From a virus: a stretch of 32,200 nt of DNA. Every line of letters begins with the position of its first letter. Positions within the stretch are counted from its first letter, which is position 1. Shown piece after piece: positions 2,155 through 9,099 of the stretch. The DNA lies in IMG/VR virus record IMGVR_UViG_3300030328_002601, positions 1 to 32,200 of that record, one strand, 5' to 3'. The position numbers and the translations under genes were made by a program. The notes under the pieces were generated by a model. It saw only the letters and a list, made by a program, of their open reading frames with translations. It made no database searches and was not told the DNA's origin.

Positions 2155-2451
2155 TTATTCTTTTACAAATGTACCATTTTTCATTTTACCTTTTCTATTT
2201 GATATTTCGGCATAAGCTGCTTCAATACAATCCTCAATTGACATATCAATTAATTCTGCTAAGTTGGTTAACACTACAACACAATCACCAATTCCATCTA
2301 TAATTTCCTCTTTATCATTTTTAAGTACAGCTCTACAGATTTCTCCAGCTTCCTCTATTAACTTTAATGTTTGTGTTTTCGGGTCTCCTTTTTCATAGAG
2401 TCCTCTTTCTCTTGCCCATTGTCTAATTAAATCAAATTGTTTTATTTTCAT
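2155..2451 (-). CDS. MazG-like nucleoside triphosphate pyrophosphohydrolase
   Basis: This 98-aa all-alpha protein has the MazG-type metal-binding pattern: EEAGE at residues 33-37 (ExxE type), then EIID (49-52) and GDCVVVL (55-61). Such enzymes convert dNTPs to dNMPs plus pyrophosphate using Mg2+. Length and architecture fit the single-domain phage MazG-like/dCTPase-like group. It lies two genes downstream of a thymidylate-synthase-fold enzyme whose active site suggests dCMP specificity. A dCTP-to-dCMP role, as for T4 gp56, would fit but is inferred. Alternatives are house-cleaning of damaged nucleotides or lowering of (p)ppGpp-type signals. Confidence 0.8.
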   Translation of the reverse strand: MKIKQFDLIRQWARERGLYEKGDPKTQTLKLIEEAGEICRAVLKNDKEEIIDGIGDCVVVLTNLAELIDMSIEDCIEAAYAEISNRKGKMKNGTFVKE

Positions 2452-2455
2452 CTTT

Positions 2456-2545
2456 TTATTGTTTTTGGTTATTAAATAAGTATTTTATCGTCGGTGGAAA
2501 TAACTTAATTACTAAAGTTCCTTTTCCTATTTTTATTTTAAACAT
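2456..2545 (-). CDS. Possible tiny protein, 29 aa
   Basis: An ATG at 2545 overlaps the last codons of the thymidylate-synthase-fold gene in another frame, and the TAA lies 4 bp before the MazG-like gene. The predicted peptide MFKIKIGKGTLVIKLFPPT then continues to end in NNQKQ. It has a plausible strand-rich composition and fills an 86-bp gap in a genome with almost no such gaps. There is no homology evidence, so it could be chance. Confidence 0.35.
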   Translation of the reverse strand: MFKIKIGKGTLVIKLFPPTIKYLFNNQKQ

Positions 2546-3320
2546 TTAACTTTGCTTTTATATATTCATTACTATTATAGTTTATAATCTTATAATCCTC
2601 AACTCTAAAGCTATATTTATCTATTTCAATTTCTGGGTCTGGGAATGTTGGTTTTAATAACATTTCGTTTACTTCGTTTAAATGATTTTCATAAATATGA
2701 GCATTAGCTAAATTAAAATAAATACTTCTTGCATTATGATTAGTAGCATGAGCAATATATTTAAGCATTAAAGTTCCTACAATAATATCATAAGGCAACC
2801 CTAAAAAAACATCAGAACTTCTAAAGTTCATAATCATATCTAAGCTTTTACCTTCTGCTACAAAAGTCATATCCACATAACAACATGGTAACGGTTGTTC
2901 TTTAATTACTTCTGGATTCCAAAAAGAAATAACAGCTCTCCTTGATAAACCATGAGGGTTATCTCTTAACTCATTTATTACGTAAATTAATTGGTCAAAA
3001 GTACCATTATATTTTCGTAACATTTGAGGATATGAATTTTCTAAATCATTATTTTCATCTGCCCACGCATTCCACCATGTAACATTATGTTCTAATAAAT
3101 AATCAATACTTTTTTTACCCTGCATCAACCAACAAAATTCTGCTATTCCTTTATTATAAAATATTTTTTTAGAAGTTATCACTGGAAATCTACCCTCACT
3201 TAAACTTAACTTTAATGTTTGATTAGTTAATTGAACAGCATAACCATTTCTAGTTTTAAGTCGACTTCCTCCTAAAATTATTTTTCTTAATAATTCATTA
3301 TACTTATCACTACTTCTCAT
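2538..3320 (-). CDS. Thymidylate-synthase-fold enzyme, probable dCMP (hydroxy)methylase
   Basis: This 260-aa protein matches ThyA in length and motif order. Seen are the catalytic Glu61 (AEFCWLMQG), the NVTWWNAWADENNDL segment, the SRR phosphate arginines (126-128), nucleophile Cys146 (LPCCY), RSSDVFLGLPYDI (167-179) and AHIYENH (207-213). The His normally after the nucleophile is Cys. More telling, E. coli ThyA has Asn177 (LPFN) reading the uracil ring, whereas this protein has Asp178 (LPYD). Asp at that position is characteristic of dCMP-specific enzymes such as T4 dCMP hydroxymethylase. I infer action on dCMP rather than dUMP, and methyl versus hydroxymethyl transfer cannot be told from sequence alone. 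The gene overlaps its upstream neighbour by 11 bp. Confidence 0.85.
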   Translation of the reverse strand: MRSSDKYNELLRKIILGGSRLKTRNGYAVQLTNQTLKLSLSEGRFPVITSKKIFYNKGIAEFCWLMQGKKSIDYLLEHNVTWWNAWADENNDLENSYPQMLRKYNGTFDQLIYVINELRDNPHGLSRRAVISFWNPEVIKEQPLPCCYVDMTFVAEGKSLDMIMNFRSSDVFLGLPYDIIVGTLMLKYIAHATNHNARSIYFNLANAHIYENHLNEVNEMLLKPTFPDPEIEIDKYSFRVEDYKIINYNSNEYIKAKLNV

Positions 3321-3702
3321 AATTTATTTGCTTTATGGAATTTCCTAAAGATTTCATTCCAGTTCCTATTCTGTTTCTATATTTTAATCGTTTGTCTATT
3401 TGTTTTTCATCTTTACCTTCATTTTGCCATATTAAATCTCGATGTCTTTTAATCCATTTATACCAAACTTTTGGACCAATCAAAAAATCATCTGTGTTTC
3501 TTATTCCTAATCTAAAAGATTTTTGAATATCCTCGATATGTAAATTACCAAAGTCTTCATTAAGGTCTTCCGCTAATATTAAACTTAGCGAAACAACATC
3601 ATCCTCTGATATATTAGTTTGTCTTAATTGTAAAAATGTATTACTTAATAAGTCTACAGAAAAATTTCTTAAACTTTCTATTGGAATTTCTTTAATTAAC
3701 AT
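3310..3702 (-). CDS. Replication-region protein of unknown function, 130 aa
   Basis: This helical protein contains the block LSLILAEDLNEDFGNLHIEDIQKSFRLGIRNTDD (written here in parts: an acidic helix, then a helix ending FRLGIR), followed by VWYKWIKRHRDLIW and a basic tail. Similar blocks occur in phage proteins coded beside replication initiators, where helicase-loader or accessory roles have been suggested, but I cannot assign a family. It overlaps the initiator-like gene upstream by 11 bp and the thymidylate-synthase-fold gene downstream by 11 bp, so it is co-expressed with both. Role in replication is inferred from context only. Confidence 0.65.
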   Translation of the reverse strand: MLIKEIPIESLRNFSVDLLSNTFLQLRQTNISEDDVVSLSLILAEDLNEDFGNLHIEDIQKSFRLGIRNTDDFLIGPKVWYKWIKRHRDLIWQNEGKDEKQIDKRLKYRNRIGTGMKSLGNSIKQINYEK

Positions 3703-4318
3703 TGTTGTTTATTTTATTTATCATTTCTTTTGCTTTAGCATGAGCATCTAATGTTTTTTGAATTTTAGATTTATTATTAGTTTTAAATCTGGAATTCATT
3801 CTTTCCCACCTTTGTAAGCGAGCTTTTAAATTCCAGGTTTTTTCTAACTCCCATCTCATTTTGGTTTTACTCTTATTTGTTTCTCTCCAGTAATCAAAAA
3901 ATTCTTTTTGCATTGGTATAGGAAACCCTAATAAAGAAATATCATTTGAAAATTTTTGTTCTCTTATAAGAATATTATTATTTGTAGTATTATTATTTAT
4001 AATATTATATCCATCATTATTAATGATAGGGGTACCGCTCGGAATGATGGTAGCTATACGTCTTTGAACAATTTGATTATCTTTTTTAATAATAGTATTA
4101 GTAATAAATTTATTAGTTTCCAATTCTTTAATCCAAAGACTAATAGTGTTTTTTGTTACTGAATATAAATCTGCAAAATATTTATTGCTAGCAAAACAAT
4201 ATCCTTCTTTATTTGATAATGCAGTTATTTCCCCATATAATAATTTTGCATGAGGTTTGATTTTAGCATACCTTACATGAGCTGGAATAATTGCGTAATA
4301 TGTTGGACTATGACTCAT
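3692..4318 (-). CDS. HTH replication initiator-like protein
   Basis: In this 208-aa protein the N-terminal ~85 residues form a winged-helix domain of the HTH_36 type used by phage replication initiators: PHAKLLYGEITALSNKEG, then YFADLYSVTKNTISLWIKEL as the recognition region. An Asn/Ile-rich linker (about 100-115) follows. The C-terminal half, FFDYWRETNKSKTKMRWE with LQRWERM and a Lys-rich helix, resembles the ends of replisome-organiser proteins. The AT-only DNA encoding the linker could be the origin itself. It stands between the DnaA-like gene and the thymidylate-synthase-fold operon. Transcription-factor function is an alternative. Confidence 0.7.
   Translation of the reverse strand: MSHSPTYYAIIPAHVRYAKIKPHAKLLYGEITALSNKEGYCFASNKYFADLYSVTKNTISLWIKELETNKFITNTIIKKDNQIVQRRIATIIPSGTPIINNDGYNIINNNTTNNNILIREQKFSNDISLLGFPIPMQKEFFDYWRETNKSKTKMRWELEKTWNLKARLQRWERMNSRFKTNNKSKIQKTLDAHAKAKEMINKINNNVN
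3974..4003. repeat. Tandem 15-bp AT-only direct repeats, possible origin unwinding element
   Basis: Two adjacent 15-bp units starting ATTATTATTT (13 of 15 bases identical) are followed by more A/T up to about 4010 and a short dyad near 4013-4028. They lie inside the initiator-like gene and encode its Asn-rich linker. In lambdoid and many Gram-positive phages the origin lies within the initiator gene, so this is a candidate unwinding region. The repeat may also simply reflect Asn codons. Confidence 0.35.
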
Positions 4319-5134: not shown

Positions 5135-5379
5135 TTTAATTTGTTATTTATAATATCAACGCAATTTGAATAATGAGTTGCGTTGTTCCTCATTGTGTTT
5201 ATTATTTCTGTAATATCATGAATAAAATTTTGGTACATGTCAATTTGTAATTCATGAACAGTTTTCATAACTCCCTCAGTATTATTTTTTCTTTCATTCA
5301 ATTCTGTTAATCTATTTATGTAACGTTCTCTAAGGTCAGATAACATTTGAAGATTTGGGTTAAGCAATTCTACTTCCAT
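5131..5379 (-). CDS. Hypothetical helical protein, 82 aa
   Basis: The product is nearly all helix-forming, with a run LQMLSDLRERYINRLTEL that looks like a coiled coil, followed by HELQIDMYQNFIHDITEIIN. No catalytic motif is seen. It overlaps the gamma-glutamylcyclotransferase-like gene by 10 bp and the SSB-like gene by 4 bp, so it is translationally coupled to both. It may be a small structural or adaptor protein. Function is unknown. Confidence 0.6.
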   Translation of the reverse strand: MEVELLNPNLQMLSDLRERYINRLTELNERKNNTEGVMKTVHELQIDMYQNFIHDITEIINTMRNNATHYSNCVDIINNKLK

Positions 5380-5747
5380 GATAATTCTCTTTTATAATTT
5401 CCTGTTTTATTAAGTCTTGCACCAATAGGTAACTTAGTAATTAAAAAATATGTCCAACATTCTATACAACTTCCTGTAGCTGGAATGCAAACTAATATTT
5501 TTTTTCGATTATACCAATCTGGGTGACCTTCTAAAGCATCTAATCGTTGTAATGTTTCATCTGTTACTGAATAAACTTCTCCTCCAATAGGGGAAATAGG
5601 GTCATCAATTAAATAAGGCAATCCATCCTCATATAAAGCGAATTTTCGTCTAGTACAACCAGTTCCAAGAAATTCACTATCACCTAACATACCATTATTT
5701 CCATGACTTCTTTTTAAAGTCCCATACACAAAAACATTATTTGTCAT
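5370..5747 (-). CDS. Gamma-glutamylcyclotransferase-like (GGCT/AIG2 family) protein
   Basis: This 125-aa protein has the hallmark strand-loop VFVYGTLKRSHGN (residues 5-17; YGTL binds the substrate carboxylate and amine), GGEVYSV and LDALEGHPDWYNR, where Glu of LEGH is the expected catalytic acid/base. It covers a full single-domain GGCT fold. Members release 5-oxoproline from gamma-glutamyl amines or dipeptides. In this genome it accompanies an Amidoligase_2 gene and a class II glutamine amidotransferase 1.4-3.6 kb upstream, a combination known from Amidoligase_2 gene neighbourhoods. It may edit or release a gamma-glutamyl intermediate made by those enzymes. Substrate is unknown. Confidence 0.82.
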   Translation of the reverse strand: MTNNVFVYGTLKRSHGNNGMLGDSEFLGTGCTRRKFALYEDGLPYLIDDPISPIGGEVYSVTDETLQRLDALEGHPDWYNRKKILVCIPATGSCIECWTYFLITKLPIGARLNKTGNYKRELSWK

Positions 5748-6015
5748 TTTTTTTATCTTTTAAATTATAATTATGAAGACCTTGAATGTATGCACATAAG
5801 TCCATTAAGGTGTCTTCTTTCATTTGATAAGCCATTCTGGACGCTTTTAAAGCAATCATACATTTAAAGAAGTCTTGTGTACTAATATCTTTATTACACA
5901 TAACTGAAGCAATTTTAGCTGCTTTTGACATTGAATCGTTAAATGGTCCATATTGTCTTTCTTTTTCCTCAGCTCCATGATTAACTATTTCGTCTGCTTT
6001 TTTTAATATACTCAT
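5737..6015 (-). CDS. DUF6378-like phage protein
   Basis: This 92-aa helical protein has an N-terminus ILKKADEIVNHGAEEKERQYGP and later FFKCMIALKASRMAYQMKEDTLMDLCAYIQGL. The ADxxv...RQYG block, followed by a conserved K-x-(S/A)R helix and (D/N)xxDxxxY helix, is the pattern of DUF6378-type phage proteins. These are often coded among nucleotide-metabolism genes and resemble all-alpha pyrophosphohydrolases. The metal-binding carboxylates are not clear enough to claim activity. The gene overlaps the GGCT-like gene by 11 bp and abuts its upstream neighbour by 1 bp. Confidence 0.6.
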   Translation of the reverse strand: MSILKKADEIVNHGAEEKERQYGPFNDSMSKAAKIASVMCNKDISTQDFFKCMIALKASRMAYQMKEDTLMDLCAYIQGLHNYNLKDKKNDK

Positions 6016-7098: not shown

Positions 7099-7836
7099 TT
7101 AAAATAACCTTCCTTGACTTCTTGACCACCCTGAAGTTGCTAAGGGCTTTGTTTTAGGTGTGTCATATTCCCACCAATTTTTTATTTCATACTCTTGCTC
7201 TTGAATTGGTTTATATTCAATTCTACGCTTTACAATACGCTCACCATTTTCATAAATATATAAATATCCTTCATCCAGCATAAATATATTTTTACACCCA
7301 ATAACTTCTAATGGGTTTTTTAAACTTGAAAAGTATTTATTGCCATTAATATTCCCACAAAATAACGGGTTGCCTTTCCTGTATGCGTATAAGCGACTAT
7401 TGTTTTTCGTGTATAAAGTAGCTAGAGTATTATTAAATAGCCCTAAAATTTTTGGGTCATTAGTATGGTTTAATAACTGAAATATCATTTGAGAATCAAC
7501 ATCAGTTCTATCAAAACCAAATTTCTCTCCAACCTCAGCAAAATTTAAAACCACTCCATTATGGGCTCCAGTAAATTCACCATATGTAAATGGGTGTTGA
7601 TTTGCAATAGTTACCTCTCCATGAGTCTTATGTCTTGTGTGACCTATGAATAGGCGCGTTTTAAGACGTTTTAAATCTTTTTTAAGGTTAACAGTTAGAC
7701 CTAATGTTTTCTTTAGTCTAAACGTGTCGAAATAGCCACAAGAGTGTTTACCCCTAGATTCATTCATTTTCATTAAATACATTATTCGTTTTGGCTCAGT
7801 ATTTGATTTGCCATTATATCCTATTAATCCACACAT
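7099..7836 (-). CDS. Class II glutamine amidotransferase (Ntn hydrolase)
   Basis: This 245-aa protein begins MCGLIGYNG. After Met removal, Cys2 is the N-terminal nucleophile. Other class II motifs are in order: RGKHSCGYF (about 29), FIGHTRHKTHGEV with NQHPF (about 68-85), TGAHNGVVLNF (about 92) and DRTDVDSQMIF. These define the glutaminase domain that releases ammonia from glutamine, as in GlmS, PurF and AsnB, but no synthetase domain follows. The C-terminal ~70 residues are strand-rich and end in a basic tail. It must pass ammonia or a glutamyl group to a partner. The Amidoligase_2 gene 258 bp upstream is the obvious candidate. Confidence 0.88.
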   Translation of the reverse strand: MCGLIGYNGKSNTEPKRIMYLMKMNESRGKHSCGYFDTFRLKKTLGLTVNLKKDLKRLKTRLFIGHTRHKTHGEVTIANQHPFTYGEFTGAHNGVVLNFAEVGEKFGFDRTDVDSQMIFQLLNHTNDPKILGLFNNTLATLYTKNNSRLYAYRKGNPLFCGNINGNKYFSSLKNPLEVIGCKNIFMLDEGYLYIYENGERIVKRRIEYKPIQEQEYEIKNWWEYDTPKTKPLATSGWSRSQGRLF

Positions 7837-8093: not shown

Positions 8094-8984
8094 TTAAAAT
8101 CGTCTTAAGGAAGCTCCTTTGTCAAATGACCCAGAGAATATGTTAAACCCAAAATGTAATGCTCTTGACTCAAAATGTTTCATTACTTTTCTGTTTTGCT
8201 TAACACCGAATACATCGATAAAAACGTCTTGATGATTAACTGAAGGAGCAAATTGAACAGCTTTCATTTTGAAAACTTTGTCAACTGTGTTTAAACAAAA
8301 TGCAACCCACGTAGTGATTTTTTTAGAATCAACTGTTCCAGAGTGTTGTCTGAATTCAACTGTTCTGTACCTTCTAAAAGAGTGTAAATTTATTTTATTA
8401 TATCTGTTTCCTAAAAAGTTTGCAATTGCACTGATTTGAGTAGGTAAACCTTCAGCGTCATTTTGCTTTACTAATTTGTTTAGTCTTTTTATATTAGAAG
8501 CGTTATAAGTCATAACTGGTTTGCAGTACATATTGTTGTTGCTTCGTCTGCTGTTAGGCATTACTGAATCAATTATAGATTCGTTCTTAGCATAGTATTT
8601 TACTAAGTTTGCAACTTTCTTTGCAGTAGCATCTTGAATTCCTACGTGAACATGAATTCCGCAAGACTTATTTACTTTTACTGTTGGGATAGAATCTAAA
8701 GCGTTAACTATAATATTTAATTCATTCATTCCCTCTTGACCTCTTAAAACTGGTGAAACTAATTCGTAGCCACAGCTTGAGTCAGTTACTAATTTCCAGT
8801 GGTTTCTTGTGTTGTGATTATAAGACTCGTGGTATACATTAATATAATTAGATGGGTCTCTAGTTTCATTTATTGAAGCTAAAGCCGCATTTAATTTATT
8901 ATTAATAGTGCTTAATCTGTTTGATGAAGTAAACTCGATTTCTACTCCGAAAGTTCTTGTTGATTTGTTTTTAATTGTTTTCAT
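8094..8984 (-). CDS. Amidoligase_2-family COOH-NH2 ligase
   Basis: Taking the ATG at 8984 (an upstream GTG at 9053 is also open but includes promoter-like DNA) gives 296 aa. Family motifs are TFGVEIEFTSSNR (about 9-21; the Glu pair binds metal/ATP), CGYELVSPVLRG, CGIHVHVGIQDA (HxHxG) and RTVEFRQHSGT. Amidoligase_2 proteins are glutamine-synthetase-like ligases predicted to join a carboxylate to an amine with ATP. Neighbourhoods with glutamine amidotransferase-like and Aig2/GGCT genes are known for this family, and both are present here. Substrates are unknown. It has its own upstream -7-like box and downstream hairpin, so it may form a single-gene transcript. Some annotations would call it hypothetical. 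Confidence 0.85.
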   Translation of the reverse strand: MKTIKNKSTRTFGVEIEFTSSNRLSTINNKLNAALASINETRDPSNYINVYHESYNHNTRNHWKLVTDSSCGYELVSPVLRGQEGMNELNIIVNALDSIPTVKVNKSCGIHVHVGIQDATAKKVANLVKYYAKNESIIDSVMPNSRRSNNNMYCKPVMTYNASNIKRLNKLVKQNDAEGLPTQISAIANFLGNRYNKINLHSFRRYRTVEFRQHSGTVDSKKITTWVAFCLNTVDKVFKMKAVQFAPSVNHQDVFIDVFGVKQNRKVMKHFESRALHFGFNIFSGSFDKGASLRRF

Positions 8985-9022
8985 TTTTCTAGTTTTTGTT
9001 TTTATTTGTTTGTTTGATACTG

Positions 9023-9030
9023 TAAATATA
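9023..9030 (-). promoter_or_regulatory. Possible -7 box (TATATTTA) for the amidoligase gene
   Basis: TATATTTA differs from TAnnTTTG only in the last base and lies 38 bp upstream of the ATG at 8984. T-rich DNA about 20 bp upstream could serve as a degenerate -33 region. The call is weak, but it lies in the only long non-coding gap. Confidence 0.3.
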
Positions 9031-9099
9031 GGACATTTCCTGTTAAAAAACACTATCTTTTAACAATTATTTTCAATAAAAGTGCATATTTTTTTCTTT

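Follow-up and report, generated by a model that had tools for sequence, protein, structure and literature searches.

Which reaction is catalysed by a phage enzyme of the thymidylate synthase (TS) fold whose base-reading residue is an Asp, and does its pairing with a MazG-like pyrophosphohydrolase bear on the cytosines of the phage DNA? The question is raised by the virus record IMGVR_UViG_3300030328_002601 (IMG/VR), whose 32.2 kb, with 32% GC, were analysed as a whole and are termed the window here. The terminase, portal, HK97-type head genes, tape measure protein and endolysin that it encodes indicate a siphovirus-like phage. An earlier note, made from the sequence alone, had placed TS-like and MazG-like ORFs in it, the latter downstream; their coordinates, on the minus strand, are confirmed and both have Pfam matches. 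In the direction of transcription, this segment comprises an HTH protein, a 130-aa ORF, the TS-fold gene and the MazG-like gene. The features discussed below are the following:

3692-4318, minus strand: replication-initiation-like HTH protein
3310-3702, minus strand: ORF of 130 amino acids with no assigned function, directly upstream of the TS-fold gene, an order conserved in L018
2538-3320, minus strand: TS-fold enzyme of 260 amino acids with LPYD Asp178, Cys147, Leu144 and Tyr148; predicted dCMP 5-methylase
2155-2451, minus strand: MazG-like NTP pyrophosphohydrolase of 98 amino acids (Pfam MazG/PRA-PH); predicted to convert dCTP to dCMP
5737-6015, minus strand: DUF6378 protein of 92 amino acids, several genes away from the TS-fold gene
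5370-5747: GGACT
7099-7836: GATase II (class-II glutamine amidotransferase)
8094-9053: Amidoligase_2

The end of the 130-aa ORF overlaps the start of the TS-fold gene by 11 bp, so that the two may be translationally coupled, and a gap of 86 bp separates the TS-fold gene from the MazG-like gene. In the nearest relative (L001/L018, 71% identity), gene order is kept over about 9 kb. Comparison of the TS-fold genes of this pair yields a dN of 0.20 and a dS of 0.80: the gene is under purifying selection. No gene of the window was recognised as encoding a nucleotide kinase or a phage DNA polymerase.

Active site and fold of the TS-like enzyme

The protein matches the Pfam Thymidylat_synt profile (PF00303) with an E value of 3e-63 and, together with the catalytic Cys, possesses the equivalents of Glu58, Arg126/127/166, Asp169, His207 and Tyr209, which places it in the thymidylate synthase superfamily. 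Alignment to E. coli (Ec) ThyA confirms that Glu61 (Glu58), the phosphate arginines and His208/Tyr210 (His207/Tyr209) are kept, as the earlier note had read them; the arginines are Arg24/127/128/167 (Arg21/126/127/166), and Asp170 (Asp169), Trp83 (Trp80), Trp86 (Trp83) and Tyr97 (Tyr94) are retained as well. The nucleophile had been assigned to Cys146, followed by a Cys in the place of the ThyA His, and both assignments have to be shifted by one residue. In the motif L144-P-C-C147-Y148, it is the second Cys that aligns with Ec Cys146 and the first with Ec Pro145, while the position of Ec His147 is occupied by Tyr148. Leu144 stands at the Ec143 position, three residues before the nucleophile (C-3).

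Another change concerns the residue that reads uracil. The Asp178 of the LPYD motif aligns with Ec Asn177 of the ThyA motif LPFN, in agreement with the earlier reading, and the Asn that defines ThyA is replaced. The other ThyA features are present: the Leu of Ec143, the Trp of Ec80 and the C-terminal tail that seals the active site for hydride transfer. The AF2 model (pLDDT 93) superimposes end to end on ThyA complexes, tail included (Z 34, rmsd 1.5-1.6, residues 4-260 on Ec 1-264), with about 29-30% of residues identical to those of E. coli ThyA in these alignments; with 4gev, for example, the match reaches the last residue (Z 34.2, rmsd 1.6, 4-260 on 1-264). T4 gp42 is absent among the 50 structure matches listed, an absence that excludes nothing.

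In studied enzymes, as cited in PMC8670742, an Asn-to-Asp change at this site shifts the preference from dUMP to dCMP. The sugar can be read in the same way. A Ser/Arg pair selects deoxyribose, and the CMP hydroxymethylase MilA has Ala176 and Lys133 at its ribose-selecting sites (PMC5175136). The window protein does not have the Ala and Lys of the MilA type; it keeps Ser168 and Arg128, which argues for dCMP rather than CMP. Judging from these residues, the substrate is very probably dCMP.

An Asp-type clade in viruses

Relatives were collected by alignment-guided scans, which returned 80 viral loci and, after removal of duplicates, 59 distinct proteins; as these loci come from related viruses, the locus counts given below are not independent. 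Every one of these 59 viral proteins carries LPYD at Ec174-177 and Leu at Ec143, and the Ec147 position is Tyr in 47 and Phe in 12. At the Ec Trp83 position, Trp86 of the window protein is replaced by Phe or Tyr in most relatives. Canonical viral ThyAs, gathered in a separate scan, have Asn at Ec177 and His147 in 79 of 79 cases, and bacterial ThyAs have Asn at Ec177 in 80 of 80. Since LPYD is invariant across the relatives as against the Asn of canonical ThyA, Asp178 is, on these alignments, neither a chance substitution nor a lone change. The same scan of bacterial species genomes returned only proteins of 26-32% identity, every one with Asn and none of the Asp type; to judge from the scans, the clade occurs in viruses only. 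To note, a more distant viral TS homologue (L019:3051-3842) exhibits LPSD, with Asp at 177, and Leu at C-3, and is possibly another dCMP-methylase-like lineage.

Clustering inside true ThyA, with the Asp as a lone change, had been named as the outcome that would sink the proposal. The tree of 61 proteins displays instead a separate and well-supported group for the window clade (100/99), in which the Asp is invariant. The nearest neighbour of the clade in this tree is ThyA, a weakly supported placement (85/59); the clade stands apart from both the T4-type dCMP hydroxymethylases and the enzymes of the Xp12 type, that is, of Xanthomonas phage Xp12, AXL1 and DLP4 and also of RcRudolph, RDJL6 and Achromobacter 83-24. 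An independent origin of the Asp was considered and set aside: the tree separates the groups, yet AU tests leave the union of the window clade with the Xp12 type and gp42 unrejected (p 0.13-0.27; a single origin with the Xp12 type, p-AU 0.23).

The MazG-like partner

The downstream protein matches Pfam MazG with an E value of 1e-8 and PRA-PH with 2e-4. Its metal site follows the EExxE/ExxD motif: E33, E34, E37, D52 and D56 are invariant in 30 sequences, and E49 is conserved in at least 90%. By clustering, the MazG gene lies directly after the TS gene in 72 of the 80 clade loci; by profile, 78 of the 80 loci have it at most 2.5 kb away, which after clustering at 70% identity corresponds to 15 of the 16 clusters. 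The same holds for the Xp12-type loci (8/8), and for none of 80 canonical viral or 80 bacterial ThyA loci. This neighbour profile had been trained partly on the clade, and the control was therefore repeated on 50 canonical records with the Pfam MazG profile: a match above the cut-off occurs somewhere in five, and in no record does it come closer to the TS gene than 2.5 kb. The MazG gene is located upstream of the TS gene in the Xp12 type and downstream in the window clade, so that the pairing either arose twice or outlived a rearrangement. About half of the relatives have a GIY-YIG/T5orf172/MUG113-like domain fused to the N-terminus of MazG (L021:5765-6502, L029:2957-3691 and others).

MazG enzymes can act on many NTPs, and the substrate of this one is unpredictable from its sequence; it probably supplies dCMP from dCTP. 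Its breadth also leaves room for a dUMP-active thymidylate synthase that tolerates the Asp, with MazG acting as a house-cleaning enzyme or a dUTP pyrophosphatase, and both the fold and the best tree do place the protein nearest to ThyA. However, the Asp does not vary across a clade that is diverse, and comes together there with Tyr177 and Tyr/Phe148, the same exchange switches the preference away from dUMP in the enzymes covered by PMC8670742, and the MazG neighbour never stands beside canonical viral ThyA in the tested set. A dUMP enzyme is accordingly regarded as improbable.

A methyl or a hydroxymethyl product

Granted a dCMP enzyme, the nature of its product hinges on position C-3. This residue is Asp in 55 of 55 T4-type dCMP hydroxymethylases and in gp42 (56 in total), as well as in three dUMP hydroxymethylases, SPO1 gp29, Mutine and PAC7; Mutine and PAC7 are taken to be such enzymes from their phage groups, Ackermannviridae and Yuavirus. 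It is Leu in the window protein and all its relatives, and Asn in the eight Xp12-type sequences. The base-reading position is distributed differently, being Asp in all 55 T4-type dCMP hydroxymethylases and all eight Xp12-type sequences and Asn in the SPO1 dUMP hydroxymethylase. Because dUMP hydroxymethylases carry the C-3 Asp though they act on uracil, the acid appears to follow hydroxymethylation and not the base, a rule that rests on few biochemically tested enzymes. A mechanism is at hand: in the ternary-complex study of the T4 enzyme, Asp145, three residues before the nucleophile, activates the attacking water, the D145N variant is unproductive, and the corresponding residue of TS is Leu (PMC6400193).

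Compared with gp42, the window protein thus shares the Asp of the base-reading site (T4 Asp179) and has Leu144 in place of the C-3 carboxylate; of the Ser94-x-Tyr96 pair described in PMC6400193 it retains the Tyr only, as Asn95-x-Tyr97. An Asp at 177 with a carboxylate-free C-3 is the combination expected of a dCMP 5-methylase, and a TS engineered from Asn to Asp is a dCMP methylase that yields 5mdCMP (Liu and Santi 1992, as cited in PMC8670742). Leu at C-3, Trp86 and the ThyA C-terminal tail, with the model aligned to its last residue, favour hydride transfer, and hence a methyl product, as the more likely chemistry. With dCMP as the substrate, methyl rather than hydroxymethyl can be predicted with good confidence from these features.

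The earlier note had proposed a dCMP-specific TS and a MazG in a cytosine-modification route reduced from that of T4, with 5-hydroxymethyl- or 5-methyl-dCMP as the product. The clade-fixed Asp, the specific association with MazG and published work (PMC8670742) uphold the route itself, and of its two variants the methyl one fits better. A hydroxymethylase of the gp42 kind, leading to 5-hydroxymethylcytosine DNA, would have the same Asp at Ec177, its pyrophosphatase could parallel the dCTPase of T4, and TSs linked to a carbamoyltransferase in modified contigs have been taken as dCMP hydroxymethylases (PMC8670742). It is nevertheless unlikely here. At C-3, all relatives have Leu in the place of the Asp that every hydroxymethylase compared possesses, whichever base it acts on, and that the T4 enzyme cannot do without (PMC6400193); the Trp83-to-Val change and the loss of the C-terminal tail seen in dCMP hydroxymethylases are absent from the window protein, which lies nearest ThyA and not gp42; the best tree does not group the clade with them; and a carbamoyltransferase, as in 5-carbamoyloxymethylcytosine phages, was found in none of 31 records (the window and 30 relatives).

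Genes around the cassette

Many of the relatives' records are fragments, so that the gene absences reported here are soft. No DHFR was found in the contigs of 30 relatives. A DHFR would be in keeping with a methylase, since dihydrofolate is then a product, and with clade contigs devoid of it the host DHFR must suffice; its absence counts a little against a methylase and, if anything, fits a hydroxymethylase, which needs none. A homologue of the DUF6378 protein lies immediately upstream of the TS gene in 59 of the 80 relatives. Profile-profile comparison found nothing to make DUF6378 a relative of MazG, and its AF2 model, of five helices, has no PDB match at an E value under 0.001.

A dCMP deaminase is encoded directly after the enzyme in Votkovvirus S28C10 and L044, the only two of the 30 relatives' contigs with this gene; none was found in the window itself. 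In a rival reading, 5-methyl-dCMP is a step to dTMP by deamination, and the enzyme would serve thymidine supply and not DNA modification; the Xp12-type cassettes also include a deaminase, and the window is AT-rich. The rarity of the gene in the clade speaks against this, as do the deaminase-bearing Xp12-type phages, which still have 5-methylcytosine or restriction-resistant DNA (PMC9206674), and the published association, which is with modified DNA (PMC8670742). Thymidine supply as the role of the enzyme is thus given very little probability. ThyX, which would provide a second thymidylate supply, was found in none of the 31 records. Votkovvirus S28C10 harbors the fullest nucleotide cassette of the clade (L016:8152-10173), in the order MazG, thymidylate-kinase-like protein, Asp-type TS and dCMP deaminase.

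The window and its closest relative, L018, also have in common the order GGACT, GATase II and amidoligase, and a cytosine hypermodified by these amide-forming genes had been deemed conceivable. This proposal is abandoned: the amidoligase is present only in these two, in none of the 29 other contigs carrying an Asp-type TS, and is therefore unlinked to the TS-MazG cassette.

A proposed route to 5-methylcytosine DNA

The explanation that best accounts for these observations, and a likely one, is a phage dCMP 5-methylase that works with MazG, as a source of dCMP from dCTP, in a route to 5-methylcytosine DNA. The steps that we infer, from the substrate and product of the methylase and the substrate of MazG to phosphorylation, incorporation into DNA and purpose, would be the following. 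The Asn-to-Asp exchange at the base-reading position would make the enzyme take dCMP. With the reductive chemistry of ThyA retained, a methylene from 5,10-methylene-THF and then a hydride from the folate would be transferred, giving 5-methyl-dCMP and dihydrofolate. The MazG-like enzyme would hydrolyse dCTP to dCMP, which would both lower the pool of the unmodified nucleotide and provide the methylase with its substrate, a role also expected of MazG in the 5-methylcytosine phage Xp12. Host kinases would convert the product to 5-methyl-dCTP, and the host polymerase would insert it, so that 5-methylcytosine replaces cytosine in the phage DNA, probably for protection against restriction. The presence of 5-methylcytosine in virion DNA is considered rather probable.

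The recurrence of the TS-MazG pair in environmental viruses suggests that their DNA, too, carries 5-methylcytosine. A broader generalisation is put forward tentatively: small environmental phages would widely convert C to 5-methylcytosine by a minimal set of a natural dCMP methylase and MazG, in most cases alongside DUF6378, doing without a DHFR, dCMP deaminase or nucleotide kinase of their own, and the C-3 acid would predict 5-hydroxymethylcytosine versus 5-methylcytosine. If true, these viruses would form a second, numerous group of 5-methylcytosine phages with a simple two-gene route; their enzyme would be a natural counterpart to the engineered thymidylate synthase; the presence or absence of the C-3 acid would be a residue rule separating makers of the two bases in metagenomes; and bisulfite or enzymatic assays for 5-methylcytosine would report such DNA as fully methylated.

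Comparison with known systems

Systems in which a phage TS that modifies dCMP is accompanied by a pyrophosphatase are already known. The literature searched appears to contain no description of the clade, of its set of residues or of its gene order, and none of it presents the clade as dCMP methylases. To our knowledge, no assayed enzyme has Tyr or Phe at 147 or Cys at 145.

Among phages, 5-methylcytosine throughout the genome is known for Xp12, in which it replaces all cytosine, and is suspected in a few relatives, the responsible phage genes not being firmly assigned (PMC9206674). The Xp12 relative AXL1 resists most enzymes cutting at sites that contain G/C, by a mechanism called unknown, and its cassette, like that of DLP4, consists of pyrophosphohydrolase, TS, dCMP deaminase and DHFR (PMC9206674). 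In the present comparison, DLP4 and AXL1, of the same group, represent the Xp12 type instead of Xp12's own record. The window clade shares with this type a TS with LPYD, an acid-free C-3 and a MazG/PRA-PH neighbour. Whereas the Xp12 type has Asn at C-3, Pro at 147, a C-terminus unlike that of ThyA, MazG upstream, and a dCMP deaminase and usually a DHFR downstream, the window clade has Leu, Tyr/Phe, MazG downstream and DUF6378 upstream, and no DHFR was found. Three phages of Rhodobacter, Roseobacter and Achromobacter (L270, L271 and L272) have a cassette of the Xp12 type, with a pyrophosphohydrolase or annotated hydrolase, a TS with LPYD and a deaminase, with a DHFR in the first two, and are further candidates for 5-methylcytosine DNA.

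With T4 gp42 (PDB 1b5d, 6a9b) the window enzyme shares the TS fold, the base-reading Asp and the conserved Cys, Glu, Arg and His/Tyr. It differs by Leu144 for the C-3 Asp, Trp86 for the Val in the place of Trp83, an Asn at the site of Ser94, and the ThyA tail that gp42 does not have.

A third comparison is provided by MetaGPA, in which phage DNA with deamination-resistant cytosines was selected: TS was the most associated family, its residues 177 and 147 the top two associated positions, with Asp177 in most modified contigs, and it co-occurred there with PRA-PH and dCMP deaminase (PMC8670742). By their published description, these homologues have Asp177, a changed 147 and the PRA-PH co-occurrence in common with the window enzyme; some, unlike those of the window and the 30 relatives' records, are paired with a carbamoyltransferase. 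It is the match of Asp178, Tyr148 and the PRA-PH/MazG neighbour to this pattern that links the window to modified-cytosine DNA.

Finally, the enzyme shares with ThyA the fold from end to end, the folate and phosphate residues, the Leu at C-3 and the C-terminal tail, and with the engineered TS the Asn-to-Asp change itself. In contrast to both, its Asp is natural and fixed in a viral clade, and is accompanied by Tyr177, Tyr148 and Cys146.
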